DNA of 32,540 nt from Sunxiuqinia dokdonensis. GTDB taxonomy: Bacteria > Bacteroidota > Bacteroidia > Bacteroidales > Prolixibacteraceae. Under the pieces are notes generated by a model. That model saw only the letters and a list, made by a program, of their open reading frames with translations, had not been told where the DNA came from and did no database searches. Positions 12,135 to 32,087 of the stretch are shown in pieces. The stretch spans positions 1-32,540 of the forward strand of contig NZ_LGIA01000046.1 in NCBI RefSeq assembly GCF_001270965.1. The letters are read 5' to 3'. The translations under genes and the position numbers were made by a program. Numbering within the stretch: position 1 is the stretch's first letter; each line of letters begins with the position of its first letter.

Positions 12135-12530
12135 GGGGCTGACTGGTTTTGACAGCGGGTAGAAGAGGTATGTAAGCATGTCGAGCTTTGGTTGTTGGCT
12201 CGGAAATCTTAATGATCAAACCTTTAATTGGCGAAAACAATTACGCTCTTGCAGCGTAACCGAATCAAGTAGGTTATGCTTAATCCCGGCACCAGGTGCT
12301 GGGACAAGACATCGTCCGGATGCTATTGCCTTGAGGCTATTCGATATGACGGTGCAAAAAATCGAGGCTAGTTGAATGTTTGCTTTGTACATTCAGCGAA
12401 ACTTAAGAAGCTAAGGTAGTAGTCGGTGGCCTTGATCCTGCTGCTACTCGAAAATCAAGTCGAGGCTACACATGTAGAAAGCATATTGCTTCCTCGTTTG
12501 GACCCGGGTTCGATTCCCGGCAGCTCCACC
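12135..12530 (+). ncRNA. ssrA: tmRNA (ssrA)
   Basis: The 5' end GGGGCTGAC pairs as the acceptor stem with CAGCTCC near the 3' end (12521-12527). The T arm CCCGGGTTCGATTCCCGG is at 12503-12520. The tag reading frame runs from 12230 to TAA at 12257-12259 and encodes GENNYALAA (probably preceded by an Ala carried on the tmRNA), ending in the ALAA degradation signal. The RNA rescues stalled ribosomes and tags their products for proteolysis. After the discriminator A the genome reads CCCA rather than CCA, so the CCA tail is probably added after transcription. The 3' 23 bases are partly repeated 19.5 kb downstream (32065-32087). Confidence 0.97.
12507..12529 (+). repeat. ssrA 3'-end core, candidate left attachment site
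   Basis: GGTTCGATTCCCGG followed by CAGCTCCAC. The first 14 bases recur exactly, and 21 of the 23 bases overall, at 32065-32087 in the same orientation. The 3' ends of tRNA and tmRNA genes are classic integration sites. Confidence 0.55.
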
Positions 12531-12532
12531 CA

Positions 12533-12576
12533 AAATGCTGACTGTCAATCAATTAATATTGACCTAGTCAGCATTT
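12533..12576 (+). terminator. Hairpin after tmRNA
   Basis: AAATGCTGACT (12533-12543) pairs perfectly with AGTCAGCATTT (12566-12576). TCAAT and ATTGA inside can extend the stem. It follows the tmRNA directly, though the T run after it is short. Confidence 0.65.
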
Positions 12577-12636
12577 AGTCATTCAGAAAGAAAACCAGTG
12601 TTTCTTCAGGCTTCTTATCTCGTCTTTTCTCTATTC

Positions 12637-13752
12637 TTAAAACTTTTGTAATTCATCGGGGCCAGGCTTGGCGTAATCCGGATCTTTGGCGCGAATAATG
12701 AGTTCACCGCCAACCAATTTCACTTCCAGCGGAACGAACGTAACGCCTTGCTCGTTGATCGTTTGGGCTGTTTCGGAAAGGTCTCTCGTTTGAATCTCCC
12801 CTGATGGCAATGGTGGAACATTGGCATTGAAAAAAGCCGTACACCACCATTTTCCATGCTCGTCCTGAAATGGCGTTCCATGCCCGAGGAACCGCCCGAC
12901 AAACTTACGCTCGCTGTATGGACCCGTGATTTGATCTGCTGTGGCGTAGTAAAGATTATAACTTCCCTTACGCATAATTCCGGTCGACCACCCTGTGCCA
13001 AAAAGCACGTATTTTCCATGAATTTTTTGGATCAGGCAACCTTCGTGTCCCATCCTGCTAGTTTTGCCAGAGGGGCCGATGTCCACTGCTTCGCCGGAAA
13101 AATCCGAAAGGTCCGGCTTGAGAGGAGCAATTGTAGTGGCTCCCCAAATCATCCACCAGGTTCCATCATCGTTTTTAAACAAAGAAGGGTCGTGGCGTTT
13201 GCCGATCTTCGCCCCCATCGGATTAGTCCAGGGTCGCTGGGGCTCTGCTCCCGTGGCCACTGCCATGTTGGCTCCTGCAACAGGCGAAGGACTGGTGTGT
13301 ACTAAAACCAATTTGCCATCAACAAAATGAAACTCCGGTGCCCACAACCGCCAATCCGACTTCGACACCGTCTTGAACTTTTCCGGGTTTTCTGTAAACC
13401 AAAAGCCATCTTCGAGGCTGAACGGTACACCTAAGGATTTCCAATGAATAAAATCTTTCGATTTCCAGGCCTGGAGCTCAAAACCCACAAGACTCGAATC
13501 GCCCAATCCAATATTATAGATGGTCTGCTCAGATTCTTCGAGCGTGGGCGCTTGTGTTGTACCTGTAAGGTAAAAAAAACCGTCAGGCCCCTTTACCACG
13601 TAAGGATCCCGTATCCAACCATCTTTGACGTGAATGGCACGATCGTGATCAACCAACGCTTCTTTAATTTCTTCGGGGCTCGACAGGGAGCTGGTAACCA
13701 CATCGTCAGGACCTGACGAAATTAAGAATACCAAAAGCAGTAGTAATTTCAT
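12637..13752 (-). CDS. Glycoside hydrolase, GH43-like five-bladed propeller
   Basis: This 371-residue exported protein has an N-terminal hydrophobic signal segment (MKLLLLLVFLISSG) and the three acid residues expected of GH43-type inverting glycosidases. They are Asp49 in GWIRDPYV (general base), Asp188 in KRHDPSLF (pKa modulator) and Glu237 in MGHEGCLI (general acid). The WRLWAPEFHF segment (about 134-143) is also typical of the fold. Such enzymes usually release arabinose, xylose or galactose from side chains; the subfamily cannot be fixed here, and related propeller families such as GH117 remain possible. It is the last gene of the long - strand locus, 61 bases after a sulfatase, so it likely trims the same sulfated glycan in the periplasm or on the surface. 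Confidence 0.82.
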   Translation of the reverse strand: MKLLLLLVFLISSGPDDVVTSSLSSPEEIKEALVDHDRAIHVKDGWIRDPYVVKGPDGFFYLTGTTQAPTLEESEQTIYNIGLGDSSLVGFELQAWKSKDFIHWKSLGVPFSLEDGFWFTENPEKFKTVSKSDWRLWAPEFHFVDGKLVLVHTSPSPVAGANMAVATGAEPQRPWTNPMGAKIGKRHDPSLFKNDDGTWWMIWGATTIAPLKPDLSDFSGEAVDIGPSGKTSRMGHEGCLIQKIHGKYVLFGTGWSTGIMRKGSYNLYYATADQITGPYSERKFVGRFLGHGTPFQDEHGKWWCTAFFNANVPPLPSGEIQTRDLSETAQTINEQGVTFVPLEVKLVGGELIIRAKDPDYAKPGPDELQKF

Positions 13753-13813
13753 AAGCCAATATTTTTAAATTATTATCATCCATTTAATCGCCTGATTCGC
13801 AAAATTGACAGCG

Positions 13814-15415
13814 CTACCTTCCGCTTTGCTGTCGTTCCAACTCGCGAACTTTAGCCCAGTCTTCCACGAGATGTTTCTGCGCCCATTCGTTCCACATTTT
13901 TTTCATTTCACTAACTCGCTCAGGCCATTGACTGGCGAGATTATCCAATTCAGCCGGATCGGTTTTCAAATCATACAATTCCCAGTTTTCGCTATGGGTG
14001 GCACTCCATGCCGAAACCAACTTGAAGCTTCCCAGGCGAACAGCTTTGTTTCCTTCATGCTCCCAGAATATGGGTTCATCATGGATTGGTTTGCTTTTAT
14101 GAATCGCAGGAAAAATGCTTTTGCCAACTAACTTTGGAAGCTGATTTCCTTGGTAGATTTTGGGATAATCGGCTTGTGCCACGTCTTTAATGGAGGCAGC
14201 AACATCAGGTAAAAAACCATATTCCTCAACCCACTGACCATGCCTGTTACTGGAAATTCCATCGGGCCAGTGAACAATTAGCGGCGTACTAATTCCCCCT
14301 TCGTGCACCCAGTGTTTATATCGCTTAAAGGGCGTATTGGAAGCGTTGGCCCACGCTTCGCCGTATGATAACAGAAAACCTCTTTGGCTTTCGAGATTTT
14401 CTGCTTGTCCACCCCCAAGCATGCCCCCCTCGGCGCATGCTCCATTATCAGATAAAAAGAAAATAATCGTATTCTCCAAATCTCCACGTGCTTCCAGAAA
14501 CTCGACCAACTTGCCAATATTCTGATCCATCCGGTCAATTTGAGCCGCATAAATGGCCATTCGCAGATCCATTTCCTCCTGTTGTTCTTTTGACAAAGCG
14601 TCCCAGTCCGGGCCGGCCTGTTCCGACAAGTCCACGTCCCCGGCCAACAGCCCAATCGCCTTCATTTTTTCCAAACGGGCTTCCCTGATTTTTGTCCAGC
14701 CATCCAGGTATTTGCCGCGGTATTTGTCAATATCTTCCTTCAAAGCGTGGAGCGGCCAGTGAGGAGCCGTGTAAGAAAGATAAAGAAAGTAGGGCTTATC
14801 CGGCGTGGATTCTTCAATAAAACGAATGGCATAGTCGGTAAAGGCATCAGTCGTGTAATACTCACCCTCCGCCTTTACAGGATCATTCCCCAGACTTAAT
14901 CCTCTTGGTTCCTCAGGCTTGAAATAATTGGATGCACCGGAAAGTATACCATAAAACTGATCGAAGCCACGCTGCAAAGGCCATTTCTCCTTTCCATGAT
15001 ATCCCAAATGCCATTTTCCGGTCATGAATGTTTGGTAGCCATTCAATTTGAGCATTTCGGCAATTGTCAAACACTCCTTATTCAAATATCCTTGATATCC
15101 GGGCAATCCGTAATTGTGCTGGGTTGGATTATTTGGGGTATTGGTCATGTGCCCGATCCCGGTTTGGTGTGGATAAAGTCCAGTCATGAGCGAAGCGCGC
15201 GTTGGGCAACATCGGGCCGAATTGTAAAATTGTTTAAAGCGCACACCATGCTTGGCCAATTGATCAAGATTTGGAGTTTGGACCTCGCCCCCGTAGCACC
15301 CAATATCCGAAAAGCCCATATCATCAGCCATAATCAAAACGATATTTGGCTTTTGTGCGGCAGAAACACTTAGGGTCAAAGTGGATGCCAGCGTCAGCAA
15401 TGAGAATTTATTCAT
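13814..15415 (-). CDS. Arylsulfatase-type sulfatase (S1 family), Cys type
   Basis: This 533-residue protein has a signal peptide (cleavage near SVSAAQK, residue about 20) and the sulfatase signature CCPTRASLMTG. Cys69 is the residue to be converted to formylglycine (C-x-P-x-R with Arg73). Other active-site elements are Asp31-Asp32 (MADDMG, metal), Lys134/His136 (GKWHLG), His219 (TAPHW), Asp323-Asn324 (LSDNG, metal) and Lys367 (RYKHW). It should hydrolyse sulfate esters in the periplasm. The RCCPTRAS sequence and the GFDQFYG segment are as in the large arylsulfatase A-like group. It needs an anaerobic sulfatase-maturating enzyme, which is not in this window. It is the fifth sulfatase after the SusCD/GH2 genes in the - strand locus. 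Confidence 0.95.
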   Translation of the reverse strand: MNKFSLLTLASTLTLSVSAAQKPNIVLIMADDMGFSDIGCYGGEVQTPNLDQLAKHGVRFKQFYNSARCCPTRASLMTGLYPHQTGIGHMTNTPNNPTQHNYGLPGYQGYLNKECLTIAEMLKLNGYQTFMTGKWHLGYHGKEKWPLQRGFDQFYGILSGASNYFKPEEPRGLSLGNDPVKAEGEYYTTDAFTDYAIRFIEESTPDKPYFLYLSYTAPHWPLHALKEDIDKYRGKYLDGWTKIREARLEKMKAIGLLAGDVDLSEQAGPDWDALSKEQQEEMDLRMAIYAAQIDRMDQNIGKLVEFLEARGDLENTIIFFLSDNGACAEGGMLGGGQAENLESQRGFLLSYGEAWANASNTPFKRYKHWVHEGGISTPLIVHWPDGISSNRHGQWVEEYGFLPDVAASIKDVAQADYPKIYQGNQLPKLVGKSIFPAIHKSKPIHDEPIFWEHEGNKAVRLGSFKLVSAWSATHSENWELYDLKTDPAELDNLASQWPERVSEMKKMWNEWAQKHLVEDWAKVRELERQQSGR

Positions 15416-15475: not shown

Positions 15476-16843
15476 CTAACGGTTCCAATGTTGGTGCTTT
15501 TTGGCTTCCATCTCAGTTTCCTGTCCCTGATCACCACAATATTCCATCCACTCCTTCAACACACGATCCAGTCGCTCAATGATCTCCTTGCTTTCGGCTT
15601 TATCCGCGATGTTGTGCATGCAGTACTGGTCCTTTTCCACATCGTACAATTCAATTGCAGGTCGATGTTGGTATCGCTCCGTCAGCCACTTTGCCTTTGG
15701 ATCCGTCTCTGCCTTTTCAAGCCAAATTTTAAACAGGCGGCCGGCAGTTTCTGTATTTTTAAAAGTAGCCTCGGGGGTAAGGTTAACGATATAGCGATAT
15801 TTTTTATCGGCAACCGAACGAATTCCGTAGTATTCGCTTCCACTGTAGATTCCGCGTGTTGTTTGCAAAGAAAAAGTATACTGTTTATGCTGTGTTTCTT
15901 TCCCTGTCAGAATCGGCACGATGCTTTTACCGTCCAATGGTGCCGAAGGCTCCAATCCGGCCATATCCACAAAAGTCGGCACTATATCTACATATTCGAC
16001 AATCGCATCCGATTCGCTCCCTGGTTTAACGAATCCTGGCCAGCGTACAATGTATGCGGAATGAACGCCTGCATCATAGCACGTCCATTTGGCAAAGGGA
16101 AGGCTGTTGCCTTGTTCACTCAAATAAACAACGACCGATTGATCCGTAACGTTATGCTTCTCGAGCTTTTCGAGCAAGGTGCCGAACTCGCCGTCCATGT
16201 AATTGATTTCGGCCAGGTATTTACAAAACATCTGCCGGGTCTCCTTGGTGTCCACGTAGTATGGCGGAAGCCTAAGTTCATCTGGATTAAACAGTTCCGG
16301 ATTTCCTTTATTCCACGGTGTGTGCGGTTGATTGGTGGTAACAACCAGGCAAAATGGTTGATCATTCGACGTACAATCCTGGATAAAAGAATCAATCGCA
16401 GCAAAATTCAGATCATTGGTTTTGGTCAGGGGAGCATATAAATCCCAGGGAAAAACCGACTCGGGATTCACATGCGATTTACCAACCAACGCCACTTGGT
16501 AACCAGCCGGTTTCAATTGCTGAACCATGCTCAGCGTTCCTTCATTCGCAATCGTATGATTGGGATGTGCCCCGGTTTTTACAGGCCACAAACCGGTTAA
16601 AAGATTATGCCGGGTCGGGGAACACATGGGAGCCGCCTGAAAACCGTTTGTAAAACGAATGCCCTCGCTTGCAAATTTGTCGATGTTGGGAGTTTGAGAA
16701 TCCGTACTACCGTAACATCCGATGTCAAAATACGTGCAATCGTCGGCCAAAAACAAAACCAGATTTGGCTTTTCCTGGTTCTGAGCATTTAACGCCAAAG
16801 CAGAGCATGTGGCCAGTGCTGCGAGTATTGACTTTTGTTTCAT
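15476..16843 (-). CDS. Sulfatase (S1 family), Cys type, with unusual SEQG metal motif
   Basis: This 455-residue protein has a signal peptide ending near ALNAQNQ (residue about 20). The signature MCSPTRHNLLTG gives Cys74 as the formylglycine residue and Arg78. Asp34-Asp35 (LADDC) and Lys122/His124 (GKSHV) fit the active site. Where most sulfatases have D-N or D-H metal ligands, this one reads LSEQG (Glu243-Gln244), followed by the PFAKW block (Lys252) that is shared with the neighbouring sulfatase at 16884. The GAHPNH segment after the signature is also shared with the sulfatases at 16884 (GAEANH) and 30339 (GAHANH), marking a related trio. I associate this type with sulfamidase-like S1 subfamilies such as S1_8, tentatively. 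It lies 60 bases upstream of the sulfatase ending at 13814. Confidence 0.95.
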   Translation of the reverse strand: MKQKSILAALATCSALALNAQNQEKPNLVLFLADDCTYFDIGCYGSTDSQTPNIDKFASEGIRFTNGFQAAPMCSPTRHNLLTGLWPVKTGAHPNHTIANEGTLSMVQQLKPAGYQVALVGKSHVNPESVFPWDLYAPLTKTNDLNFAAIDSFIQDCTSNDQPFCLVVTTNQPHTPWNKGNPELFNPDELRLPPYYVDTKETRQMFCKYLAEINYMDGEFGTLLEKLEKHNVTDQSVVVYLSEQGNSLPFAKWTCYDAGVHSAYIVRWPGFVKPGSESDAIVEYVDIVPTFVDMAGLEPSAPLDGKSIVPILTGKETQHKQYTFSLQTTRGIYSGSEYYGIRSVADKKYRYIVNLTPEATFKNTETAGRLFKIWLEKAETDPKAKWLTERYQHRPAIELYDVEKDQYCMHNIADKAESKEIIERLDRVLKEWMEYCGDQGQETEMEAKKHQHWNR

Positions 16844-16883: not shown

Positions 16884-18260
16884 TTAGCGAATGCCGAGTT
16901 CATGAGGCGTTGGGCCGGAAATCGGATAGGGAGTTTCAAAAAGCGCCCGGGTATCTCCCTGCTCATTCATCCACTCCTCCAGCAGTTGGTGCATTTCTTG
17001 AATTTGCTCCTGGTGTTCATCGCTGCCAATCAGGTTGTTCTGTTCGGTTGGATCAGTTTCCAGATCATAAAATTCCTCCGCCGGACGAACGTAATACCTC
17101 TGAATAATCGCTGCTGCTGCCGGATCGGTCTTGGCTGCTTCATCCCACGAATCCCAATAAGCCCCGGCCCTTGGTTTTCTCAGAATATCGGAATGGTTGG
17201 AATGATAGTTCTCCGGATAAAGATTAAGTATGAACTTGAAGCGATCGCCACGGACACTTCGGATGGGATATACGTTCATTCTTCCATCGCCACTGTGGGT
17301 GGTAAAAATATATTCGCGAAACTTATCCTTCTTGCCTTCCAACACTTTTATAAACGATTGTCCATCCAAATCACCAGAGACTTTTGTCCCGGCAATTTCA
17401 AGCAAAGTTGGAAAAATATCGACCCAACTCACCATCGCATCGGTTCGTGTATCAGGCTTGATGTGTCCCGGCCACGCCACCACCAGCGGCACTTTGGTTC
17501 CGGCATCGTACAAATTCCACTTCGCAAAAGGCCATTGCGCACCGTGATCGCTCGAAAAGATAAAAACAAAATTGTCGCCAAAACGCTCGCGAGCAAGTTC
17601 ATAAATTCTCCCAACCTCCTGATCAATACCAGTGATATCGGAATAATACATGGCGCGGTGCTCACGCGTTTCTTCGGTGTCAATCAGAAAATCAGGGACA
17701 TTGATTTCTTCCGGTTCATAAAGCAGTTGGTCGGTCCAAAGCACATGTGGCCGACGATCACCCACCAAAAGTGCTATCGGGCCATCTTCGGCCCTGTGAT
17801 CAAGATAATCTGTCACATTTTCGGTCAGTCCGTTCATTTTTCCACTATAGAAATCAAAGCCACACGTCTGGTTCTCTTGCCCATGGGCCACTTTCCCAAA
17901 AGCAGCTACCTCGTATCCAATTTCCTGAAGGTCCTTGTGCAACAAAGGAAACTTTGGATCGGGATAGGTATGATTTGCCTCTGCCCCCGTGCGTGCGGGC
18001 ATCAGACCGGTAAGCAAAGCGGCTCTGCTCGGAGCACAAGCCGGAGAAGCAATAAAAGCTTTGTTGAACACCAACCCCTGTTCGGCTATTTTTTTCAAAT
18101 TCGGAGTTTGAACCTGTGTCGCAGGATTATACAGCGGGGTATCCATCCACCCCATGTCATCGGTTATGTAAAACACGATATTGGGCTGCTCTTTCTGTTG
18201 CCCCCAGCCACACAGATACGCGGATAAGCCCAAGGTTATCAAACAAGTTTTTCTTACCAT
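16884..18260 (-). CDS. Sulfatase (S1 family), Cys type
   Basis: The protein is 458 residues from the ATG at 18260. The frame can be extended three codons to a TTG at 18269, but the ATG gives a normal signal peptide (MVRKTCLITLGLSAYL, cleavage near GWGQQ). The signature ACAPSRAALLTG supplies Cys75 as the formylglycine residue and Arg79. Metal and active-site positions include the TDDMGW aspartates and Asp238-His239 in SSDHGAQWPFAKW. It should act on sulfated sugars imported by the SusCD system. It belongs with the sulfatases at 15476 and 30339 by the GAxxNH and PFAKW/AFGKW blocks, so the three may act on different positions of one repeating unit. A perfect 17-bp hairpin lies directly upstream (18294-18336). 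Confidence 0.95.
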   Translation of the reverse strand: MVRKTCLITLGLSAYLCGWGQQKEQPNIVFYITDDMGWMDTPLYNPATQVQTPNLKKIAEQGLVFNKAFIASPACAPSRAALLTGLMPARTGAEANHTYPDPKFPLLHKDLQEIGYEVAAFGKVAHGQENQTCGFDFYSGKMNGLTENVTDYLDHRAEDGPIALLVGDRRPHVLWTDQLLYEPEEINVPDFLIDTEETREHRAMYYSDITGIDQEVGRIYELARERFGDNFVFIFSSDHGAQWPFAKWNLYDAGTKVPLVVAWPGHIKPDTRTDAMVSWVDIFPTLLEIAGTKVSGDLDGQSFIKVLEGKKDKFREYIFTTHSGDGRMNVYPIRSVRGDRFKFILNLYPENYHSNHSDILRKPRAGAYWDSWDEAAKTDPAAAAIIQRYYVRPAEEFYDLETDPTEQNNLIGSDEHQEQIQEMHQLLEEWMNEQGDTRALFETPYPISGPTPHELGIR

Positions 18261-18293
18261 ACTATGCAAATCTTATCACCACAAACAATGATA

Positions 18294-18347: not shown

Positions 18348-19901
18348 CTAATTTCGCCCTTTACGATATTGCCTTTTCGCTTCGGGATGCGTCGCCAGTA
18401 TCGCTTTTAATTCTTCGGCCACTTTTTTATTCTCATTATAGATATTCTTGGTTTCCAGCGGATCATTCAAATAATCGTACAACTCATACCCTTTCTCTGC
18501 TTCAGGATCATTCATATTGGTCCATTCAACCAACCGGTAGCGGTCGGTTCGGATGGCACAGCCCAAATGTCCGCCTTTTGGGAAAGCATGATAAGCATGA
18601 TCCCTCACCCTCGTTTCAGTATTTTTCAGAACAGGAACCATGCTTGTTCCATCGATTGGCTGAGGCGCTTCCGGTTTTTTCAATCCGGCCAACTCAGCCA
18701 GGGTTGGGTAAATATCAACGGTCTCAGCCAACTGGCCGGTGACCGTATTCGGTTTGGCAACACCAGGTGCCACCATGATCATCGGAATAATATTGGCTTG
18801 TTCGTAGTTGGTGTGCTTGGTCCAGTAGCCATGATCGCCCAAATGCCAGCCATGATCGCCCCAAAGGACGATAATGGTATTCTCAAGCATGTTCAAACGC
18901 TCCAATTCATCCATCACCCGGCCAAGCTGTGCATCCATGTAGCTCATTGAAGCATAATAACCATGAATCAACTTTCTGGTCAACGAATCAGCATAAACAT
19001 ACTGGCCCGCAGGAATAGGTTTAAACTGATCTATTTCACCCCCTCTTTTTGTGGCATATCGGGGAGCTCCTTCGGGGTCTTTCTCATACTCCGGCATGGG
19101 CAGTTCCTCCGGATTATACATGTCCCAATATTTTTTTGGTGCACTGAAAGGCAAGTGCGGACGAGCGAATCCAACGGCCATGAAAAACGGTTGTTCCGGA
19201 TTTTTTTTCAGTTCACGCAAACGGTCGATGGCGTGCCTGGCCACGCGTCCGTCGGCATAGGCATCATCCACCACATCGGGCGACTCCCAAGCTGCTCCCC
19301 GGGGTAAATCCCGGTTTGGTGGAAAATCCTCAAAATACATGGGAGTATTCTCAAAGTAGGCTTCCTCACGGGTAAGCTCCCGGTTGGTACTCTCGGGAAC
19401 CAAATATTCAATGACCTTTTCCTTGTGGTGAGGGACGCTCCACGATGCTTCATCGTTGGTGTTGCCATGTCCGATATGAAAAACCTTTCCCATCGATTCG
19501 GCATGATATCCGGCATTCATGAAATGTTGCGGCAGGGTGACCGCGTCGGGATAGGCATCGCGGAACTCGGTTCCAAAATTGTAAAGTCCGGTACTTGTTG
19601 ACCGGGCACCCAGCATGATGTTGTAGCGCGAGGCCATACAAACCGCCTGGTTGCAAAAAGCTTTATTAAAGCGTACTCCCCTGCTTGCCAGTTTGTCAAT
19701 ATTGGGGCTCACGGCAACCGGATCGCCATAACAACCTAAATTAGGTTTTAAATCGTCAACCAAAAACAAAACCACATTCTTGCGATTTTCATTTGATTGA
19801 GACATGGCCTGCTGCCCGTGCCCAACACTCAAACTACAAAGCAAAACTGCAGCGCCAAGTGGCGTTTTGCTTTTAAACGAAAAATTTTTCAACGAATTCA
19901 T
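18348..19901 (-). CDS. Iduronate-2-sulfatase-like sulfatase with CMASR active site
   Basis: The protein is 517 residues from the ATG at 19901. A nine-codon extension to TTG at 19928 is possible but less likely. The signal peptide ends near VGHGQQ. The active-site signature reads VCMASRYNIMLG: Cys88, then Ala instead of the usual Pro, and Arg92, so it is C-x-A-x-R. Literature on sulfatase maturation describes the motif as C/S-x-P/A-x-R, so formylglycine formation is still expected. The rest fits the S1_7/iduronate-2-sulfatase group: MGKVFHIGHG, FARPHLPFSAPKKYWDMY, and the metal motif WGDHGWHLGDHGYWTKHTNYE (Asp349-His350). It is in the middle of the sulfatase run, downstream of the sulfatase at 19944 and upstream of the hairpin at 18294. 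Confidence 0.95.
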   Translation of the reverse strand: MNSLKNFSFKSKTPLGAAVLLCSLSVGHGQQAMSQSNENRKNVVLFLVDDLKPNLGCYGDPVAVSPNIDKLASRGVRFNKAFCNQAVCMASRYNIMLGARSTSTGLYNFGTEFRDAYPDAVTLPQHFMNAGYHAESMGKVFHIGHGNTNDEASWSVPHHKEKVIEYLVPESTNRELTREEAYFENTPMYFEDFPPNRDLPRGAAWESPDVVDDAYADGRVARHAIDRLRELKKNPEQPFFMAVGFARPHLPFSAPKKYWDMYNPEELPMPEYEKDPEGAPRYATKRGGEIDQFKPIPAGQYVYADSLTRKLIHGYYASMSYMDAQLGRVMDELERLNMLENTIIVLWGDHGWHLGDHGYWTKHTNYEQANIIPMIMVAPGVAKPNTVTGQLAETVDIYPTLAELAGLKKPEAPQPIDGTSMVPVLKNTETRVRDHAYHAFPKGGHLGCAIRTDRYRLVEWTNMNDPEAEKGYELYDYLNDPLETKNIYNENKKVAEELKAILATHPEAKRQYRKGRN

Positions 19902-19943
19902 AATACGATGTTTTGAGGATCTGTTCAATCCTAATTTTCAGTT

Positions 19944-23510: not shown

Positions 23511-24977
23511 CTAGTACCCTGGATTTTGCTCACAAAGCGGATTGGCGTTAATCTCGGTTTGTGGAATCGGGAACAGTTTATGATGCTCGTCAGCAATTGT
23601 AATTCCTCTGGCCTTCGCCGAGCTGATAAACTTGCCATGACGCAGCAAATCTTGTCTTCTTACTTTTTCAGCATATAATTCCCAGCCTCTTTCATCCAAA
23701 ATGCGGTCGCGTAATGTTTCTTTGGTGTAATCGCCAAGAACCAGTGGTGTCGTCAAACCGGCACGATCGCGAACTTCCTGAATCAGATCCAATGCTTCCT
23801 GCGTTGGTCCATTCAATTCATTCAAAGCTTCGGCTCGGGACAGCAGGATATCGGCATAGCGAATAACGGCAATGTCATTTCCATGGCTGTTGCCAACGGC
23901 ATCCGGATCCGGAACATACTTAAATGAGCGTGTGTTGTTATTGTTGAGCAACGAAACCGTATTGCCTGCGGTATTGATATATTCAGAGATGATCAATGCT
24001 CTCCGTTCATCAGCCGGATCAAAAGAGTTATAGAAAGAATCCATTACTCTGTCCATTCTGGCCCAATTCCGCATATTCTCTTTAAAAACGATCGAACCAT
24101 CGACAGTACTTTTAAATTGAGGAGGGAAGGCACCATTCATAAACTCGTTGCCGGGCCCCTGCGTACTGCACGGATATACCCAAACAAACTCCTTCTGCCT
24201 GGTTTCATTATCAACTGTAAACAAGGTGGTATAATCGGGCCATAATTCGTATTCATTCAGATCCATCAGATCCTTGGCGGCATCAGCACATTTTTGCCAC
24301 TGCATGGTATTCAGGTAAAATTTTGTCAGGTATCCCAAAGCGGCTCCCCTTGTTGCCCGGCCGTACTGATATCCTGGCGTATCTCGGGCTGGAAGCACTG
24401 AGGATACATCCGAGAACTCTTTTTCCAAAAAAGTTTGCATTTCGGCATCAGTTGCACGAGCCATGGCCAAATCACCGGTTGTCGACAAACGCAATGGCAC
24501 CGGCCCCCACATGGTATAAAGAATATAATATGCAGAGGCTCTTACAAAACGAGCCTCTGCCACCAATCTTTCTTTTGTTGCATCATCAATAGGCGACTGG
24601 TCTATGTTCTCCAATACAAGGTTGCAATTTCGGACCGAATAATAACAGTTGTTCCACAAACCGGTCCAGTGCGTCGGATAGGATGCATCCCAGGTAAAAG
24701 CCAGCATGACCGTGGCCTGAAGGTTTACCGCGCCGCCGGTTTCCCAAAAATGGTCACAGGTCCATTCTTCCTGAAACCAGATGTTACCACCAAAGTTATC
24801 GGTAATCTGGGCATCACGGTATGCGCCAAAAAGAACGCGTTCAACACCGTTTGCAGAATTAAACAGCGCTCCGGGATCAAGTTGTGAGAATACATCTTCG
24901 TTCAGTTGTTCTTCACAGCTGGAAAACATCATTGACGTGACCAGCAAAACGGCTGATATATAATATTTCAATTTCAT
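23511..24977 (-). CDS. SusD/RagB family glycan-binding lipoprotein
   Basis: This 488-residue protein has a lipoprotein signal peptide ending in MMFSSC (Cys21 lipidated), followed by EEQLNEDVFSQLDPGALF, a typical RagB/SusD start. It has TPR-like helices (ATKERLVAEARFVRASAYYILYTMWGPVPL) and the C-terminal SusD block (ILDERGWELYAEKVRRQDLLRHGKFI ... HHKLFPIPQTEINANPLCEQNPGY). It should cover the mouth of the SusC barrel encoded just upstream (18-base gap) and bind the imported oligosaccharide. The WGPVPLRLST and AVIRYADILLSRAEALNEL segments are classic for the family. It is unrelated at close range to the SusD at 1117, so the two SusCD systems probably bind different glycans. Confidence 0.96.
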   Translation of the reverse strand: MKLKYYISAVLLVTSMMFSSCEEQLNEDVFSQLDPGALFNSANGVERVLFGAYRDAQITDNFGGNIWFQEEWTCDHFWETGGAVNLQATVMLAFTWDASYPTHWTGLWNNCYYSVRNCNLVLENIDQSPIDDATKERLVAEARFVRASAYYILYTMWGPVPLRLSTTGDLAMARATDAEMQTFLEKEFSDVSSVLPARDTPGYQYGRATRGAALGYLTKFYLNTMQWQKCADAAKDLMDLNEYELWPDYTTLFTVDNETRQKEFVWVYPCSTQGPGNEFMNGAFPPQFKSTVDGSIVFKENMRNWARMDRVMDSFYNSFDPADERRALIISEYINTAGNTVSLLNNNNTRSFKYVPDPDAVGNSHGNDIAVIRYADILLSRAEALNELNGPTQEALDLIQEVRDRAGLTTPLVLGDYTKETLRDRILDERGWELYAEKVRRQDLLRHGKFISSAKARGITIADEHHKLFPIPQTEINANPLCEQNPGY

Positions 24978-24995: not shown

Positions 24996-27900
24996 TTAAA
25001 AACCGAGTTCTACGCCTAAGGTATAAGTTCTATAAACAGGATATGAATTAAAATCGATCTTCAAGCTACTGTCCCCATTGGAGTTAGTAGTCGGATCTTG
25101 TCCTGAATAATTCGTGATGGTATATAAGTTTTGACCACTTACATACACACTTATCCGATCAAATACCCGCTTGGTTTTCAGCGGCACCTGATAGCTCAAC
25201 TGTGCGGTTTGAAGCCGGATATAAGACGCATCCTCAACCGTCAGGTCACTGACTGCCTTGTTGCCCTGCCCTGCCGGATTGACAAACGATGGATATTCGT
25301 TTGAAGGATTTGTTTCAGTCCAACGATTCAGGTATGGCTCGGCCATTCTGTTTCGCCGGTGACTTACCGGATAATACGTTTCAACTTTTGAGTTATTCAA
25401 CATATCAACACCGGTAGCTGCATCAATAAAAACATTCAACTGAAAGTTCTTGTATTCCAGAGCATTTGTCATACCCATTGTAAAAGAAGGAAATGATTTT
25501 CCAAGGATAACACGGTCGTTGGTGTTGACAACATCATCGCCATTGATGTCTACAAATTTCACATCGCCTGGCTTCACGGGATCTTTGGTTCCCGAGGCGT
25601 CAATCTCTTCCTGCGATTGCCATATTCCGTCTGTCCTGTACCCATAAAATGAGTCGAGCGTTTCTCCCTCTCTGATGATTGCAATTTGAGAAGTTGACTG
25701 GCCTGCGCCGGTATGAATAATTTCTGCAATATCACCTGTATCCGTCACTCGGTTGCGCAGGGTGCTGAAATTGAGGCTGGTATTCCACTTCAGTTTTCCC
25801 GTCAAATTCCGGGAGTCGACTGTAAACTCAAAACCACTGTTTTTGATGTTCCCAATGTTCGACATGATCGACGTAAAGCCTGTTGACGCCGGAACAGGCA
25901 GAGCAAACAGCATGTCAAAGGTATTCTTCTGGAAATAGTCCATAGAAACGGCGATTCGGTTTTCCAGAAAACCCATATCAAAGCCAAAATTGATCTGTTC
26001 GGTTGTTTCCCATTTAAGGTCGGGATTGGCAATGCGGGTCGGGGCAAAGGTCACATATGGTTCTCCGTCGAGAATAACCTGAGCTCCTTGTCCAAACGTA
26101 GTGATAGAAAGGAAATTACCAATATCCTGGTTGCCTGTTCGCCCAACACTTGCCCTAAATTTCAATGTATTGAAAACATTCAGGTTTTTTATAAAATCAT
26201 GCTCGTGCATTTTCCAGGCGAAAGCACCCGACGGGAAATAGCCGTATTTACTGTTGGTCCCAAATCTTGAAGAACCATCAACCCGAAGCGTAGCAGTAAA
26301 CAGGAACTTGTTTAACAAGTTATAATTTGCCCTTCCAATATAGGACAACAACTTGTTGTTGTTTTTCGAACTGTCCATCGTGTAGAGTGAAGAATTGGCC
26401 AGAGACATATTATCCGTTTTCGATTCGTCAACCGGAAAACCCTTGCCCGTACCTGAGAAATTTATATTGATAAATTTCTGGTAGGTGATCCCTCCCATGA
26501 CCGTGAAGCTACTGTTGTTTTCCAGATCGCGGTGATAGGTTGTGGTGAATTCTCCCAGGTAATTGTTCCTGGTACCGGTCAAAACCGTTCCAATCCCTTC
26601 GTTTGCCCTTCCATCTTTGGTCAAACGCGAAACGTAGGTATCTCTCCGGCTGTTTCTGCTGTCGAAGCCAACATTTAGCTTCGCCGTCCAGCCTTTCATA
26701 AGCGTGTACTCGCCGAACACCGTTCCTAGCGTTCTGTAATTATCTGTCTCGCTGGTTTTACCATAAACAAGAGCCAACGGATTTTCAAGATTCATCCAGG
26801 AAACAACCTGATAATTCCCTGCATCGTCAAAAATACTGAGTGTCGGGTCATAGCCCCTTGCGGCATAAAGCGAACTTCCCTCTTCATTGGTGCTAAAGCC
26901 AATTGGAACAACATTGTCATGTGTATAAGAAGTTGAGAAGTTAATGCCAAAGGTCATTTTATCAGCTTGATGCTCGAGGTTAAACCTCGAATCATAGCGC
27001 TCATAACCAGAGGTGATCAACACGCCATCCTGATTAAAATAATTTAAGGATGCAAAGTACTTGGTCTTATCACTGCCACCAGTGAAAGACAAACTGTGGC
27101 TATGAATGACTGCGTTGCGAAGAAGTTCATCCTGCCAGTCGGTTCCGCCATCTTGAATCTCAGTCACCCGCTCGGCTTCCGACACATTGGACCCCGGAGT
27201 ATCCAGTATTTCATTCAATATCCGCTGGTAGTCATCAGCTTTAAGAACCTCAATCATGTCCTTCGGTGTCTGAATTCCGGTGTATCCGCTATAGCTAACT
27301 CTTAGTGCCCCGGAGGTACCTTTTTTAGTGGTTACCAAAATGACACCGTTAGCTCCTCTGGCTCCGTAGATTGCTGTTGCCGATGCATCTTTTAAAATCT
27401 CAATAGACTCAATGTCGGCAGGATTGATGTTTGCCATCGGACTCCGCGGCACGCGTACACCGGGTATAGTTGTCCCGTTTCCGGAGATAACCTGGCTATT
27501 TTCAATAGGCAGTCCATCGATAACATACAAAGGACCAGCACCAGCATTAACCGAACCAGCCCCGCGAATTTGCACCGTTGTGCCACCTCCGGGTTCATTA
27601 CTGGCCTGTGTAATTTGGACGCCTGCTGCTTTTCCTTGCAGCAGACCCGAAATGGTTTGCGTTACACCTTTATTCAAATCTTCTTTTCGGAATGAAGAAA
27701 CAGAACCGGTCAAATCGCTTTTCCTCACCGTTCCGTATCCAATGGCCACCACTTCTTCCAATCCAATGGTGCTTTCCGTCATCACGACGTTAAAAGTTGA
27801 TTGACTTCCAACCAAGAGCTCAACACTTTCCATCCCCACAAAGGAAAATAGAAGTGTTTGGTTTGAACCAACATTATTCAAGGTGAATTGACCATCCATG

Positions 27901-28379
27901 TCGGTAATTGTTCCTTGTGTGGTTCCTTTCACGACGACCGTGGCACCCGGAATAGCCTCTCCATCCGCATTGCTTACCGTGCCCCTAACCGTCCGGTTTT
28001 GCTGCATCTGAAAGTTGGCCTGATCGGCCGACAAGACAATCTGCCTGCCAATAACTTCGTAAGTAATTGGGGTGTCAGCCAGTACCTCATCCAAAATTTC
28101 CGTGACGTTCTTGTTGATAAATTCTGCTGAAACCTGAGCATCAACATCAATTTTTCCATTGTAGAAAAACCGATATTCACTTTGGTTTTCAATGTCCCTC
28201 AAAACGTCTTCAATGGTCGTGTTGTCGGCCACGACCGTTAATTTAGTCGATTGCGAATAGCCATTAGAGGCTAAACTTCCTAAAAATGTGACACATAAGA
28301 AAAGAATTGTTAGTCTCATTTTTCTAAAAATTTGGTAAAACAATGGTTTAAAGCCATCATTACATCGCTTTTTTTTCAT
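24996..28379 (-). CDS. SusC/RagA-type TonB-dependent receptor with STN signalling domain
   Basis: This full-length 1127-residue outer-membrane transporter has these domains in order: a signal region (the first helix is around residues 21-42, and Met21 is an alternative start), an STN domain (about 48-118, KLTVVADNTTIEDVLRDIE ... ITYEVIGRQIVLS), a carboxypeptidase-regulatory-like domain (about 128-205, VRGTVSNADGEAIPGATVVVKG), a TonB plug (about 210-350, with VQIRGAGSVNAGAGPLYVIDGLPIE and AIYGARGANGVILVTTKKG), and a beta-barrel to the C-terminus (ending TLGVELGF). The STN domain marks it as a receptor that reports substrate import to an inner-membrane FecR protein, and a FecR gene and an ECF sigma gene lie directly upstream. 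It should import oligosaccharides from the sulfated glycan this locus targets. Confidence 0.97.
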   Translation of the reverse strand: MKKKRCNDGFKPLFYQIFRKMRLTILFLCVTFLGSLASNGYSQSTKLTVVADNTTIEDVLRDIENQSEYRFFYNGKIDVDAQVSAEFINKNVTEILDEVLADTPITYEVIGRQIVLSADQANFQMQQNRTVRGTVSNADGEAIPGATVVVKGTTQGTITDMDGQFTLNNVGSNQTLLFSFVGMESVELLVGSQSTFNVVMTESTIGLEEVVAIGYGTVRKSDLTGSVSSFRKEDLNKGVTQTISGLLQGKAAGVQITQASNEPGGGTTVQIRGAGSVNAGAGPLYVIDGLPIENSQVISGNGTTIPGVRVPRSPMANINPADIESIEILKDASATAIYGARGANGVILVTTKKGTSGALRVSYSGYTGIQTPKDMIEVLKADDYQRILNEILDTPGSNVSEAERVTEIQDGGTDWQDELLRNAVIHSHSLSFTGGSDKTKYFASLNYFNQDGVLITSGYERYDSRFNLEHQADKMTFGINFSTSYTHDNVVPIGFSTNEEGSSLYAARGYDPTLSIFDDAGNYQVVSWMNLENPLALVYGKTSETDNYRTLGTVFGEYTLMKGWTAKLNVGFDSRNSRRDTYVSRLTKDGRANEGIGTVLTGTRNNYLGEFTTTYHRDLENNSSFTVMGGITYQKFININFSGTGKGFPVDESKTDNMSLANSSLYTMDSSKNNNKLLSYIGRANYNLLNKFLFTATLRVDGSSRFGTNSKYGYFPSGAFAWKMHEHDFIKNLNVFNTLKFRASVGRTGNQDIGNFLSITTFGQGAQVILDGEPYVTFAPTRIANPDLKWETTEQINFGFDMGFLENRIAVSMDYFQKNTFDMLFALPVPASTGFTSIMSNIGNIKNSGFEFTVDSRNLTGKLKWNTSLNFSTLRNRVTDTGDIAEIIHTGAGQSTSQIAIIREGETLDSFYGYRTDGIWQSQEEIDASGTKDPVKPGDVKFVDINGDDVVNTNDRVILGKSFPSFTMGMTNALEYKNFQLNVFIDAATGVDMLNNSKVETYYPVSHRRNRMAEPYLNRWTETNPSNEYPSFVNPAGQGNKAVSDLTVEDASYIRLQTAQLSYQVPLKTKRVFDRISVYVSGQNLYTITNYSGQDPTTNSNGDSSLKIDFNSYPVYRTYTLGVELGF

Positions 28380-28514: not shown

Positions 28515-29507
28515 TTATTTCTTTTCAATTTTTAATGTCCTGGTATTCTGATCGTAACTATATTCTAAGGGCATCGAACGGCGAATCAATTCCATCACCT
28601 CACTCAGGGTTTCCATCTCAATGGTTCCGGTAAACCAAAGATTTTTAATCTCATCGTTATCAACTTCAATTTTTACATTATACCAACGCTCCATGCGCTT
28701 GGCCACTTTTTCAAAAGGTTCGCGATAGAAAATCAGTTTTCCATCTTTCCACGACGTGAAAATTTCAGTTTCAACAGTTTGTATTTCAAGTCGATTATTT
28801 TCATTAACAAAAGCTTGTTCCCCCGGCTTTAGCGTAATCGACGTGCCGGCGCCGACACGAAGATTGACCGCGCCTGCAACCAGTGTGGTCTGAAAATCAT
28901 CGTCAGTATAAGCTTTAACATTAAATGAAGTTCCAAGCACCTCTATCTCACCGTAGGCTGTGGAGACTATAAAAGGTTTTCGGCTTTTGATTACATCGAA
29001 ATAGGCCTCCCCTTCGAGCTGAATGCTGCGCTGTCCCTTAAAATTGGAAGGATAACTCAGTTTCGACCCCGAGTTCAGCCAAACGAGTGAACCATCGGGC
29101 AAGGAAAATTTCGACTTTCCCCCGTAGGGTATGGAAATTTCCTGAACTTGCTGATCACTTGAAAACTTCTGAAAATGAACAAAATAGATACCACTTGAAA
29201 TCAATAAGCCAAAAACAAAAGCTGCTGCAATCGATAAGGCTTTTTGATAAAGAATAGCTTTTTGCGACCGAACTGGCTTTATATTGACTGGCCTGATTCT
29301 GGATTTCAAACGATTCCACTGTTGTTCGACCTCAGGATTGTCTGCCTGAATTACTTTTTCCCGAAGTTCTTTCTGCTGCCCGATAAAAAACTGTTTGAAG
29401 GTTTCATCGACATGCATCTTTTGTAGCAAATCCTGTTCTTCTGCTGTCGACAATTTTCCTTGCATAAAGCGGAAAATCTGTTCTCTATAGGTCTGATAAT
29501 TTTGCAT
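28515..29507 (-). CDS. FecR-family anti-sigma factor
   Basis: This 330-residue inner-membrane protein has an N-terminal cytoplasmic segment (about 1-85), which should bind the sigma factor. One membrane helix follows (about 87-110, YQKALSIAAAFVFGLLISSG). The periplasmic part contains the FecR domain (about 120-215, SIPYGGKSKFSLPDGSLVWLNSGSKLSYPSNF ... RSIQLEGEAYFDV) and a C-terminal STN-like/DUF4974 region (about 255-328, KLIFYREPFEKVAKRMERWYNVKIEV). It receives the signal from the STN domain of the SusC at 24996 and controls release of the sigma factor encoded upstream (120-base gap). Lengths and order match the standard Bacteroidetes trans-envelope set. Confidence 0.95.
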   Translation of the reverse strand: MQNYQTYREQIFRFMQGKLSTAEEQDLLQKMHVDETFKQFFIGQQKELREKVIQADNPEVEQQWNRLKSRIRPVNIKPVRSQKAILYQKALSIAAAFVFGLLISSGIYFVHFQKFSSDQQVQEISIPYGGKSKFSLPDGSLVWLNSGSKLSYPSNFKGQRSIQLEGEAYFDVIKSRKPFIVSTAYGEIEVLGTSFNVKAYTDDDFQTTLVAGAVNLRVGAGTSITLKPGEQAFVNENNRLEIQTVETEIFTSWKDGKLIFYREPFEKVAKRMERWYNVKIEVDNDEIKNLWFTGTIEMETLSEVMELIRRSMPLEYSYDQNTRTLKIEKK

Positions 29508-29627
29508 TGAATTCTTGCCTTTCTATTGGTAATACAAGAAGACAAGCATTTTTACCAACCTACATCGGTATTTTTTTTCTAATTAAAATTGAAGTGAGTT
29601 TGAAAAAAGTGCCCCAAAGATCGAAAA

Positions 29628-30230
29628 TCAGCAGCTACTCTTTTTGTTTTTCGATAAGTAAATAAAAAGCAATAATAAGCTCCGACTCAGTTGTTCCCGG
29701 GCTATAGTCATACCCTTAGCCAACTGTTTATCCACCATGGTCATGGAAATCTGCATTTCTTCGGCAATCTCCCGGTTTTTCTTTCCTTCAATCCATTTCA
29801 TACGAAAAACGATCCCACACTTATCCGGCATTAGCTTGATAATTCGATTTAACTCGCGATGCAGTAAATCCTCCATGGAAACAAATGCGCCACTGGCTTC
29901 GAAACTCAAGTGGTGCAACTCTTCGGAAACAAGGCATGCCTGTTGATGTAGATATTTTTCTTCAACAATTCGATGCTTCAAGATATTTAAACACTTATTT
30001 TTTAGTACAGTAAAAATATAGCCCGGAATATTTCGCTCGCGTTCCAAAATGCTTTGGTCTTCCCAAAGTTGAAAAAACAAATCCTGAACAACATCATTGG
30101 CTTCGTCATCACTGTGAAGAAATGAGGCGGCATATCTCTTTAGCCGAGGATAATATAGCTTGAAAAGATCCTCAAAAATCCTCAGCCTTTCTTCTTGCCA
30201 TCGTCCGATATTGTTACTATCCCAATTCAT
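29628..30230 (-). CDS. ECF-type RNA polymerase sigma factor
   Basis: This 200-residue cytoplasmic protein has sigma region 2 (about 18-60, FEDLFKLYYPRLKRYAASFLHSDDEANDVVQDLFFQLWED) and sigma region 4 (about 125-180, LNRIIKLMPDKCGIVFRMKWIEGKKNREIAEEMQISMTMVDKQLAKGM), the arrangement of Bacteroidetes ECF factors of the FecI/RpoE type. It has a hydrophobic, basic C-terminal tail. Paired with the FecR gene just downstream and a STN-bearing SusC, it should activate susCD and probably the downstream enzyme genes when substrate is being imported. A TAnnTTTG element is found about 77 bases upstream, consistent with basal expression by the housekeeping sigma factor. Confidence 0.95.
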   Translation of the reverse strand: MNWDSNNIGRWQEERLRIFEDLFKLYYPRLKRYAASFLHSDDEANDVVQDLFFQLWEDQSILERERNIPGYIFTVLKNKCLNILKHRIVEEKYLHQQACLVSEELHHLSFEASGAFVSMEDLLHRELNRIIKLMPDKCGIVFRMKWIEGKKNREIAEEMQISMTMVDKQLAKGMTIAREQLSRSLLLLFIYLSKNKKSSC

Positions 30231-30306
30231 TTAAAAAACAATTTGCCGGCAACACATTTTATCGCTAAATAAGGACTTTTGAGCTTCGGCTATTTCTGTC
30301 TGTGCA

Positions 30307-30314
30307 CAAATTTA
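30307..30314 (-). promoter_or_regulatory. Possible -7 element for the ECF sigma gene
   Basis: On the - strand the bases read TAAATTTG, an exact TAnnTTTG match. No clear -33 partner is seen. Transcription from here would give a leader of about 70 bases before the start at 30230. Confidence 0.3.
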
Positions 30315-30338
30315 GTTTAGCCAGTGCAGCAGGCATCG

Positions 30339-31793
30339 TTACTTAAAGATATAATGAATCACCGGCCCTTTTTCCTTTCTTTCGGGAGCTTGGTAAACTC
30401 CGGTTTCCTGATCACCCTGACGCTCCCGCCACGCATTCATTTCGGAACGGAACCTTTCCATTACTTCTTTGTAATTCTCATCCAATGCCAGGTTGTGCTG
30501 CTCATCCGGATCGTTCAAAACATCATACAATTCTTCAGCAGGGCGGTTGTGATACCGCCAGAGTACAGATGCTGCATGCTCCGCCTTAAACGACTCGTTG
30601 ATCCAGGTTTCCCAGTATTCGCGTCCGCCGTCATGATCTTTGGCTTTATTCATATGGGTATTGTACTGGATTTCAGGAGCCAGGTTTAAAATGTATTTAT
30701 AGCGCTTGCTGCGAATCATTCGCATCGGAGCCATGTTCATTGTCCCGTCGCCGGTATGGCTGGCATAAACCAGCTCATGCAGGTCATTGACTTTACCCTG
30801 TAGTAAGGGAACCAAACTTTTCCCATCCACCTGTTCTTCCTGATCGCCAGCATTGCCCCCGGCCAGATCAATGGCTGTTGGCACCAAATCAGTGAGCGAG
30901 ACCAAGGCGTTCGTTTCGCTGCCGCCCTGCAAAGTGTTGGGCCATTTAATCAGCAAAGGGACACGAATCCCGTAATCATAGAGGTTCCACTTTCCAAAAG
31001 CCCACTGCGGCCCCTGATCGGCTGTGAAAATCACTATCGTATTATCCTGTAATCCGTACTTTTCCAAGCTATTCAAAAGCTTTCCGACATTACCATCCAT
31101 CTTGCTAATGTCAGTGTAGTAACGCGCCCTTGACTTCCGGGTAGCTTCGGTATCAATATGGATGGAGGGAATATCCACTTCAGCTGCATCATATTCCGCT
31201 TTCTCCGGCCAAATCACATGCGGACTATGGTCATTCACAACCAACATAAAGGGTTCGCCTGTTTTCGAAGCATCTGACAACCACGCATCCACCGGCCCCA
31301 TGTTCAGGTCGGTCCACAACACGCCTTTGTCTTCATAACCGGGCTCCGGCACATTCGTGTTGTGAATCATATCGAATGGATACGAACTCATGGGCCCGAT
31401 ATGCAGCTTCCCGGCAAGTCCAACCTGGTAGCCCGCCGTCTGAAGGTACTCAGGCAAGGTTTTTATCCCTGCTGCAATACCGGCATGGTTGGCATGTGCC
31501 CCATTCCGGAAAGGATACAAGCCGGTATGTATTGAAGCGCGCGATGGCGAGCAGGTAGGCGAACTCGCAAAAGCATTGGAGAACACAACAGATTCATCAG
31601 CCAGCTTGTCCAGATTGGGTGTTCTGACCACACGATTTCCATACGGTCCAATGTCGTTGGCTCCCAAATCATCGGCCACAAAAATGACGATGTTTGGATA
31701 AGCATCTTTAGGGGCAGGTGCAGACTTTAAGGTTACTGGCAGAATTAATGCCGATGCAATTTGTGAAGCAATTAAGGTCTTAGTTGGTTTCAT
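30339..31793 (-). CDS. Sulfatase (S1 family), Cys type
   Basis: The protein is 484 residues from the ATG at 31793. The frame extends ten codons to a TTG at 31823, but the ATG gives a proper signal peptide (MKPTKTLIASQIASALILPV, cleavage near LKSAPA). The signature TCSPSRASIHTG has Cys81 as the formylglycine residue and Arg85. The metal site reads ADDLG near the start and ADQG (Asp259-Gln260) later, followed by PQWAFGKWNLYDYG. Together with GAHANH after the signature, this groups it with the sulfatases at 16884 and 15476. It lies upstream of the sigma/FecR genes and may be transcribed on its own from a promoter at 31829-31836 (-), so a basal level could generate the first inducing oligosaccharides. 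This last point is inference. Confidence 0.95.
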   Translation of the reverse strand: MKPTKTLIASQIASALILPVTLKSAPAPKDAYPNIVIFVADDLGANDIGPYGNRVVRTPNLDKLADESVVFSNAFASSPTCSPSRASIHTGLYPFRNGAHANHAGIAAGIKTLPEYLQTAGYQVGLAGKLHIGPMSSYPFDMIHNTNVPEPGYEDKGVLWTDLNMGPVDAWLSDASKTGEPFMLVVNDHSPHVIWPEKAEYDAAEVDIPSIHIDTEATRKSRARYYTDISKMDGNVGKLLNSLEKYGLQDNTIVIFTADQGPQWAFGKWNLYDYGIRVPLLIKWPNTLQGGSETNALVSLTDLVPTAIDLAGGNAGDQEEQVDGKSLVPLLQGKVNDLHELVYASHTGDGTMNMAPMRMIRSKRYKYILNLAPEIQYNTHMNKAKDHDGGREYWETWINESFKAEHAASVLWRYHNRPAEELYDVLNDPDEQHNLALDENYKEVMERFRSEMNAWRERQGDQETGVYQAPERKEKGPVIHYIFK

Positions 31794-31822
31794 CCTGATA
31801 AAATGTTGTTTTCGGGCAGGCA

Positions 31823-31862
31823 AGGTATCAAAAATACCTCGACACGCTATCCACCGACGAAA
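31823..31862 (-). promoter_or_regulatory. Putative promoter with small palindrome, upstream of the first sulfatase
   Basis: On the - strand TATTTTTG (31836-31829) fits TAnnTTTG exactly, with TTTC at 31862-31859 as a loose -33 element. The -7 element is embedded in a 6-bp inverted repeat, AGGTAT (31823-31828) and ATACCT (31834-31839). The expected leader is about 30 bases. Confidence 0.42.
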
Positions 31863-32064
31863 TGTTTTTTTATCGCGGGACTCCTGGTCTATTTTTTTAA
31901 TTGAAAAATACAGGTATGGACTAAGTTCCTTGAAAATTTTATTACTTATAACTCAGCAAACGAAAGCAACCTGAAACAAAAAGCAGTGCATTTTCAATCT
32001 GACAATTCGGGAGTTTGAAGGTTTTGAAAAGTTAGGTGTTTTGTTTTTAACAACATAAATTCAT

Positions 32065-32087
32065 GGTTCGATTCCCGGAAGTTCCAC
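32065..32087 (+). repeat. ssrA-like 3'-end fragment, candidate right attachment site
   Basis: GGTTCGATTCCCGG is identical to ssrA 12507-12520 and is followed by AAGTTCCAC where ssrA has CAGCTCCAC, so 21 of 23 bases match. The sequence just before it does not fit a T-arm 5' strand, and no tRNA body can be folded upstream, so it is a stub of a tRNA/tmRNA 3' end and not a gene. Confidence 0.55.

Follow-up and report, generated by a model that had tools for sequence, protein, structure and literature searches.

The window analysed here is the whole contig C46 (NZ_LGIA01000046.1, 32,540 bases) of Sunxiuqinia dokdonensis (GCF_001270965.1), whose genus belongs to the Prolixibacteraceae (Marinilabiliales, Bacteroidota). 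It carries a polysaccharide utilization locus (PUL) between ssrA, the transfer-messenger RNA (tmRNA) gene, and a second, displaced copy of the ssrA 3' end. We consider it probable that this PUL is cargo left in a decayed tandem array of islands that integrate site-specifically at the ssrA 3' end, a better reading than a clean one-step insertion. The evidence centres on the displaced copy at 32065. Judged by comparison with relatives, this is a place where two ends of a family-wide ssrA-targeting element are joined, and not an isolated scar.

Relatives were searched among 7 genomes of the genus and 140 of the family, with the S. dokdonensis assembly (4,962,831 bases in 225 contigs) counted in both sets. 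Genomes are cited by G number: G002 is S. indica RC1_OXG_1F (S. indica below), G003 is uncultured Sunxiuqinia 4-1396, and the G004 assembly is 71% complete.

The repeated ssrA core and its arms

The features on which the argument rests are as follows.

12135-12530, + strand: ssrA (tmRNA), the integration target, by ARAGORN (Rfam RF00023 places it at 12135-12531)
12507-12529, + strand: ssrA 3' core, first copy, inside the ssrA 3' end
12531-12593, + strand: flank after ssrA with a strong hairpin (z -4.8), no recognised element end
31922-32064, + strand: P arm, distal end of an ssrA island, 81% to an island end in G006
32065-32087, + strand: ssrA 3' core, second copy, 21/23 match
32088-32150, + strand: P' arm, integrase-side end of an ssrA island with a terminator-like hairpin (z -6.2), by comparison with relatives' ends

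A preliminary description of this DNA had reported a direct repeat of the ssrA 3' end, and the repeat is confirmed. The two core copies are identical at 21 of 23 positions and lie on the same strand in direct orientation, and no tRNA surrounds the second copy. The stretch between them is thus bordered by a complete ssrA on the left and by a displaced 3' fragment in the same orientation on the right, as expected of an island integrated at this gene. A degenerate pattern covering both cores, searched with up to 3 mismatches, matches two sites in the whole S. dokdonensis genome. Both are these cores, and the repeat does not recur at unrelated places. The same pattern gave 0 matches in 100 dinucleotide shuffles of the window.

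On the left of the second core, the 143 bases of the P arm are 81% identical (117 of 145 alignment columns) to the distal end of an island in G006. With the core included, window positions 31922-32094 match this end at 82% over 173 bases. The G006 end itself precedes a second ssrA core, 23.0 kb downstream of the core in the G006 ssrA. Within the window P arm, the 14-mer AATTCGGGAGTTTG starts at 32004. It is invariant in all eight aligned P arms, which come from four genera including the window's own; of the 11 P arms shown with AATTCGGGAGTTTG, the window's included, three stand outside the alignment (two from G015 and one from G019). The displaced fragment therefore lies beside an element end that is common to other islands at the same target.

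On the right, the 63 bases after the second core are 87% identical to G004 and 84% identical to G006 sequence directly 3' of an intact ssrA. At least 11 of the 140 genomes have P' arm and core precisely at the 3' end of ssrA (among the matches listed: G004, G006, G007, G011, G013, G015, G018, G024, G035, G036 and G037). No integrase or arm repeat was found behind the P' arm in the window. A piece similar to the P' arm follows a tRNA-Ser gene in G123, so we assign the P' arm to the element rather than to ssrA. In that genome a similar hairpin and an arm repeat come directly after the tRNA-Ser (contig C401, locus L115, 1407-1830), and the element family appears to use several RNA-gene targets. 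We had considered the stretch TTTTTC..CTCCTGTAA as the native ssrA terminator. This was rejected because a similar end follows the G123 tRNA-Ser and because it precedes the integrase in several islands.

A distal end, a core and an integrase-side end thus stand in a row at 32065, which marks the junction of two stacked islands. The preliminary description had taken 32065 for a simple displaced end; two element ends meet there, and it is the left junction that has no recognised element end. It had also proposed that an empty site would have ssrA followed directly by the sequence after 32087. G004 and G006 do have this arrangement over the 63 bases, but the piece is itself an island end and not chromosomal sequence. 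The site also lacks the present insert in G003, where ssrA is followed by the pfl operon and no island end was detected.

Islands and glycan loci at ssrA in relatives

The more complete islands run in the order ssrA core, P' arm with terminator-like hairpin, arm repeats, tyrosine integrase, cargo, Fic gene, P arm and core, and this order is present whole in G006. Wherever a core-bearing distal end shares a contig with ssrA, it lies downstream on the same strand (11 of 11: the window, G006, G007 twice, S. indica twice, G047, G050, G073, G075 and G112). Two of these 11 served as queries (the window's and one from S. indica); the G075 core carries 6 mismatches, and G112 was matched by core and terminator only. 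The integrase behind the P' arm is full-length in G004 and G006 and at least 271 residues long in G007.

Judged from gene order and matching ends, stacking of islands at ssrA is shown in G006, S. indica and G007. In G006, ssrA is followed by a type-A island (integrase, type I restriction-modification, NACHT, Mrr and Fic), a core and the end of an island of a second type, whose integrase is split over three frames. This is cargo different from the window's at the same point, a finding that the preliminary description had named as possible support. S. indica has ssrA, a type-B island, a decayed core, a type-A end, a PUL, a type-B end and another decayed core; its type-A end holds an integrase remnant of about 139 residues over two frames, with the PUL just behind. 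G007 has type-A ends 146 and 256 kb beyond ssrA, both within 4716062-4972300 of a single-contig genome (G007:C1). G006 also has a contig without ssrA (G006:C10, locus L017, 5561-12000) that carries an ssrA core, a type-B end, a Fic fragment and a PUL; this is either a rearranged array or its far end.

Traces of an island are found in G001 as well, where a Fic gene and a P-arm remnant lie between ssrA and the pfl operon. The pflB-pflA-focA operon was dropped as a candidate native neighbour of ssrA: a close pflB is present in three of the seven genus genomes (G001, G003 and G005) and was not found in G000, G002, G006 or the incomplete G004. G006 and S. indica share no non-island genes 3' of ssrA (reciprocal best matches at 50% identity, 95 kb read), and three genes upstream of ssrA are 94-97% identical between them.

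Other PULs lie inside four further ssrA-core ends (S. indica, G006:C10, G075 and G073). In S. indica, G006:C10 and G075, loci with an extracytoplasmic function (ECF) sigma factor, FecR, SusC and SusD read toward ssrA just inside the distal end. G073 has a 72-kb bracket with an intact integrase frame of 407 amino acids at ssrA; within this bracket, at a depth of 4.3 kb, lies a FecR/SusC/SusD locus whose SusC frame is broken. The four whole SusC proteins, the window's included, are only 28-36% identical pairwise, so these ends hold different PULs. At the five PUL-bearing ends Fic is missing (window) or broken (the other four). A full-length Fic match stands at ten ends or remnants that have no PUL there (G006:C1, the first S. 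indica island, G047, G021, G015:C39, G132, G028, G050, G112 and G001). Both G007 ends have Fic pieces only and no PUL within reach, so a broken Fic alone is no marker of a PUL. Inside the ends on G015:C4 and G019:C87, neither a PUL nor Fic was found. Counter to the pattern, the SusC/SusD genes on G015:C39 lie 10-18 kb inside the end and on the other strand.

FecR-SusC pairs occur within 5 kb at 3 of the 12 non-query ends with at least 5 kb inspectable (G006:C10, G075 and G073). The 509 FecR_C matches in 15 genomes (about 79 Mb) would predict about 0.4 such ends, and a Poisson estimate by hand gives about 0.007 with orientation ignored. The count covers neither the two query ends nor G070 (0.7 kb inside), G132 (3 kb), G050 and G112 (remnants of about 2 kb), and G028 and G001 (no core). 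As an enrichment over chance this is only suggestive. A broader proposal, which we find distinctly doubtful, is that P-arm ends in Prolixibacteraceae are a recurrent docking place for complete FecR-controlled PULs, at most 5 kb from the end, reading toward ssrA and with Fic broken or missing. Such PULs may pass between genomes without an integrase of their own, borrowing ssrA-specific integrases.

The locus between the cores and its origin

Twelve minus-strand genes lie between the core copies and form one PUL (all assigned by Pfam).

12637-13752, - strand: GH43 glycoside hydrolase
13814-15415, - strand: sulfatase 1, active-site motif kept
15476-16843, - strand: sulfatase 2, active-site motif kept
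16884-18269, - strand: sulfatase 3, active-site motif kept
18348-19928, - strand: sulfatase 4, active-site motif kept
19944-21383, - strand: sulfatase 5, active-site motif kept
21418-23259, - strand: GH2 glycoside hydrolase
23511-24977, - strand: SusD-like binding protein
24996-28379, - strand: SusC-like TonB-dependent transporter
28515-29507, - strand: FecR anti-sigma factor
29628-30230, - strand: ECF sigma factor
30339-31823, - strand: sulfatase 6, the gene adjoining the element end, active-site motif kept

The locus has a SusC/SusD pair, carbohydrate-active enzymes and a regulator, and the C-x-[PA]-x-R active-site motif is intact in all six sulfatases. Its gene content points to the use of sulfated sugars. 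Pfam finds no housekeeping gene among the 12, which bears out the earlier view of a single minus-strand PUL running from GH43 to its first sulfatase with neither a housekeeping gene nor an integrase inside. Without a recombinase between the repeats, the interval is at most a relict and not a complete island.

In the array reading, relatives' anatomy suggests that a tyrosine integrase inserts the islands at the 3' end of ssrA, restoring the gene with a new terminator-like hairpin. One island here would have carried or acquired the PUL, and its integrase, Fic and left end would then have been lost or exchanged. As we read the ends, the PUL lies between ssrA and the P arm and core of one island, with the P' arm of another next. 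What appears to remain is a PUL with an intact core on one side, beside which no arms were recognised, and on the other a core that has arms both left and right. Such a PUL island would now be a non-autonomous remnant, whose movement would depend on an ssrA-specific integrase acting on both cores in trans; that action would be expected to cause loss of the PUL as a circle. Both cores that cis-mobilization would need are present, the right one with 2 mismatches.

Several observations weigh against this account. The flank after ssrA (12531-12593) is only 19-29% identical to the seven flanks compared, and no P' arm, arm repeat or integrase was recognised there, although a P' arm would be expected directly 3' of ssrA on the integrase side. 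The flank agrees with the sequence after ssrA in G079, a genome of another genus, in its first six bases only; this could be ordinary chromosomal flank. Pfam finds no integrase or recombinase among the 12 genes, and no island backbone gene was recognised in the interval. The contig stops at 32540, 453 bases beyond the second repeat, which puts the right-hand context outside it, and the window belongs to an assembly of 225 contigs, in which a join could be artificial. Composition (GC and tetranucleotides) is ordinary: the PUL is the 5th nearest to the genome mean of 21 segments, and its GC is 0.454 against a mean of 0.450 for 19 background stretches, which came from contigs named by earlier matches and not from a random draw. 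Composition is therefore uninformative on origin, and the k-mer comparison inside and outside the repeats that the preliminary description had proposed gave no signal.

Comparison of the PUL with relatives cuts both ways: high identities to G079 and the lack of a close SusD in congeners speak for the array reading, the mosaic identity against it. G079 has the window's gene order ECF-FecR-SusC-SusD-Sulf5-4-3-2-1, on a contig separate from the one with its ssrA. Protein identity is high for SusC (89%), SusD (93%), Sulf4 (94%), Sulf5 (93%) and Sulf2 (89%), compared with 65% for an alanine dehydrogenase-like gene beside ssrA, the one vertical-type marker compared. It is lower for Sulf3 (73%), Sulf1 (64%), FecR (54%) and ECF (50%), and the 41-kb G079 contig, which ends where GH43 would be expected, has no counterpart of GH2 or Sulf6. 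Given these mixed identities and the missing counterparts, the PUL did not come from the G079 lineage as one unit. On this evidence it is a mosaic that G079 did not donate as a whole.

In the six congeners no close SusD was found (best 43%, in G001; all candidates scored, with G004 only 71% complete). The best DNA-level matches of the PUL there, with the two best candidate stretches scored per genome, are short SusC or FecR-SusC stretches or island ends. The strongest one listed, on S. indica C33, spans roughly 1 kb at the FecR-SusC border with 68% identity. By these comparisons the descent of the PUL does not look vertical.

The chief alternative, possible if unlikely in our judgement, is that the PUL was never island cargo. 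It would have entered or pre-existed at ssrA, and homologous or illegitimate recombination would have joined it to a decaying array, in place of the integrase end and the body that had separated ssrA from the P arm. The bare left junction with its six bases shared with G079, the absence of a backbone gene and the mosaic identity to G079 all fit this, as does the S. indica PUL that starts just behind an integrase remnant. In gut Bacteroides, moreover, most variable PUL regions lack mobile-DNA signatures, according to the part of the source drawn on here (PMC8845570). Two breakpoints would, however, be needed, one near the 3' end of ssrA and one some 100 bases away from the P arm; site-specific recombination accounts for these more simply. 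In G073, moreover, a single ssrA bracket holds both a PUL and an integrase frame that is intact.

We therefore keep a decayed tandem array with PUL cargo as the better reading. The proposal that the PUL is an ssrA island holds in that the relatives' ends reveal genuine ssrA-island structure; a clean one-step insertion of 19.6 kb is not shown.

The preliminary description also named the integrase at 6951 as a possible inserting enzyme, acting from the other side of ssrA. The features there are two.

6951-8168: tyrosine integrase (Int 6951), by Pfam
8475-8551, - strand: tRNA-Pro, with the integrase directly behind

Among the scanned proteins of the window, Pfam identifies no integrase other than Int 6951. 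The tRNA-Pro is followed by a CCTGTAA..TTTACAGG hairpin, GGTGAG repeats and the integrase, in the style of the ssrA islands. Int 6951 is 55% identical over 92 amino acids to the G006 integrase at the same tRNA-Pro and 38-42% identical to the G006 ssrA integrases. Its own hairpin and repeats and its closer tRNA-Pro relative place it in a separate island, and we consider its role in inserting the PUL very improbable. A same-strand search of the window with up to 7 mismatches found no second tRNA-Pro core, and no relative of Int 6951 was found behind tRNA-Pro in the short stretches read of S. indica, G001 and G003. The S. dokdonensis genome has 16 stretches related to the G004 ssrA integrase, Int 6951 included. 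No full-length one exceeds 40% identity; the closest fragment, which lies near the beginning of contig C221, reaches 64% over 67 residues.

Many tRNAs share the T-loop motif GGTTCGATTCC, but a chance match or an unrelated tRNA 3' end fragment is a negligible explanation of the 23-base repeat given two matches in 4.96 Mb (up to 3 mismatches), none in shuffles and conserved island ends on both sides.

Other genes of the window complete its description.

32221-32538, - strand: C-terminus of a GH78-type rhamnosidase (alpha-L-rhamnosidase), truncated by the contig end, by Pfam

This is the next gene to the right of the second core, so glycan genes run on beyond the repeat. A GH78 search of the S. 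dokdonensis genome found partial genes on C136 and C196, which by profile positions seem to suit each other better than the window piece. A partial second copy of sulfatase 4 (96% identical in amino acids) lies at the start of contig C35. That contig (1-17570) starts inside the sulfatase 4-like gene and carries another PUL with ECF, FecR, SusC and SusD. At the other end of the window, 3307-6908 holds NusG-like, TetR and KAS III-like genes and a gene without a Pfam match, which may tentatively be called CRP-like. Homologues of these genes (51-80%) lie 2-6 kb beyond ssrA in G075, which has a second NusG-TetR-KAS III set (47-87%) in reversed order 53-56 kb beyond ssrA.

Relation to known islands and mobile glycan loci

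Catalogues of the Islander type search for an integrase in the interval, and the window interval has none. DsiB, the recombinase of the ssrA islands of Dehalococcoides, is presumably a serine recombinase.

These Dehalococcoides islands are the closest precedent in the sources as excerpted. They include the vcrABC islands, are ssrA-specific and tandem, and carry metabolic cargo; 16 of 31 have an integration module, and those without one were proposed to be cis-mobilizable (PMC3146451). They differ in using the CcrB-like recombinase DsiB and in carrying rdhA (PMC3146451), whereas here, in another phylum, we find tyrosine integrases, Fic and PUL cargo. As in the tRNA and tmRNA islands of Islander, the ends are marked by a restored target gene and a displaced fragment (PMC4383910).

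Mobile PULs are also known from gut Bacteroidetes. There, 47 SusC/D loci were reported on mobile genetic elements (PMC6907783), and the use of porphyran, agarose and lambda-carrageenan is encoded on integrative and conjugative elements or mobilizable plasmids (PMC8845570). The likeness is a complete SusC/D locus on mobile DNA (PMC6907783, PMC8845570). Unlike those described in the same excerpts, the locus here has no recognised conjugation or integrase gene, has ssrA as its target, is found in Prolixibacteraceae, and is relict and tandem. A literature search judged by titles and abstract starts, with subscription journals mostly outside it, found no description of PULs in ssrA islands among the papers listed. 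Most likely this is a known kind of event, the insertion of an ssrA island, with unusual cargo.

Many variable PUL regions have no mobile genes, and the route by which they arrived is described as an open question in the portion of the source used here (PMC8845570). In the window the mobility genes are gone while the attachment scar and element ends remain, which suggests how a PUL can come to look chromosomal after its island decays. The end signature (core, AATTCGGGAGTTTG arm and hairpin) is searchable and may serve to find other such PULs.

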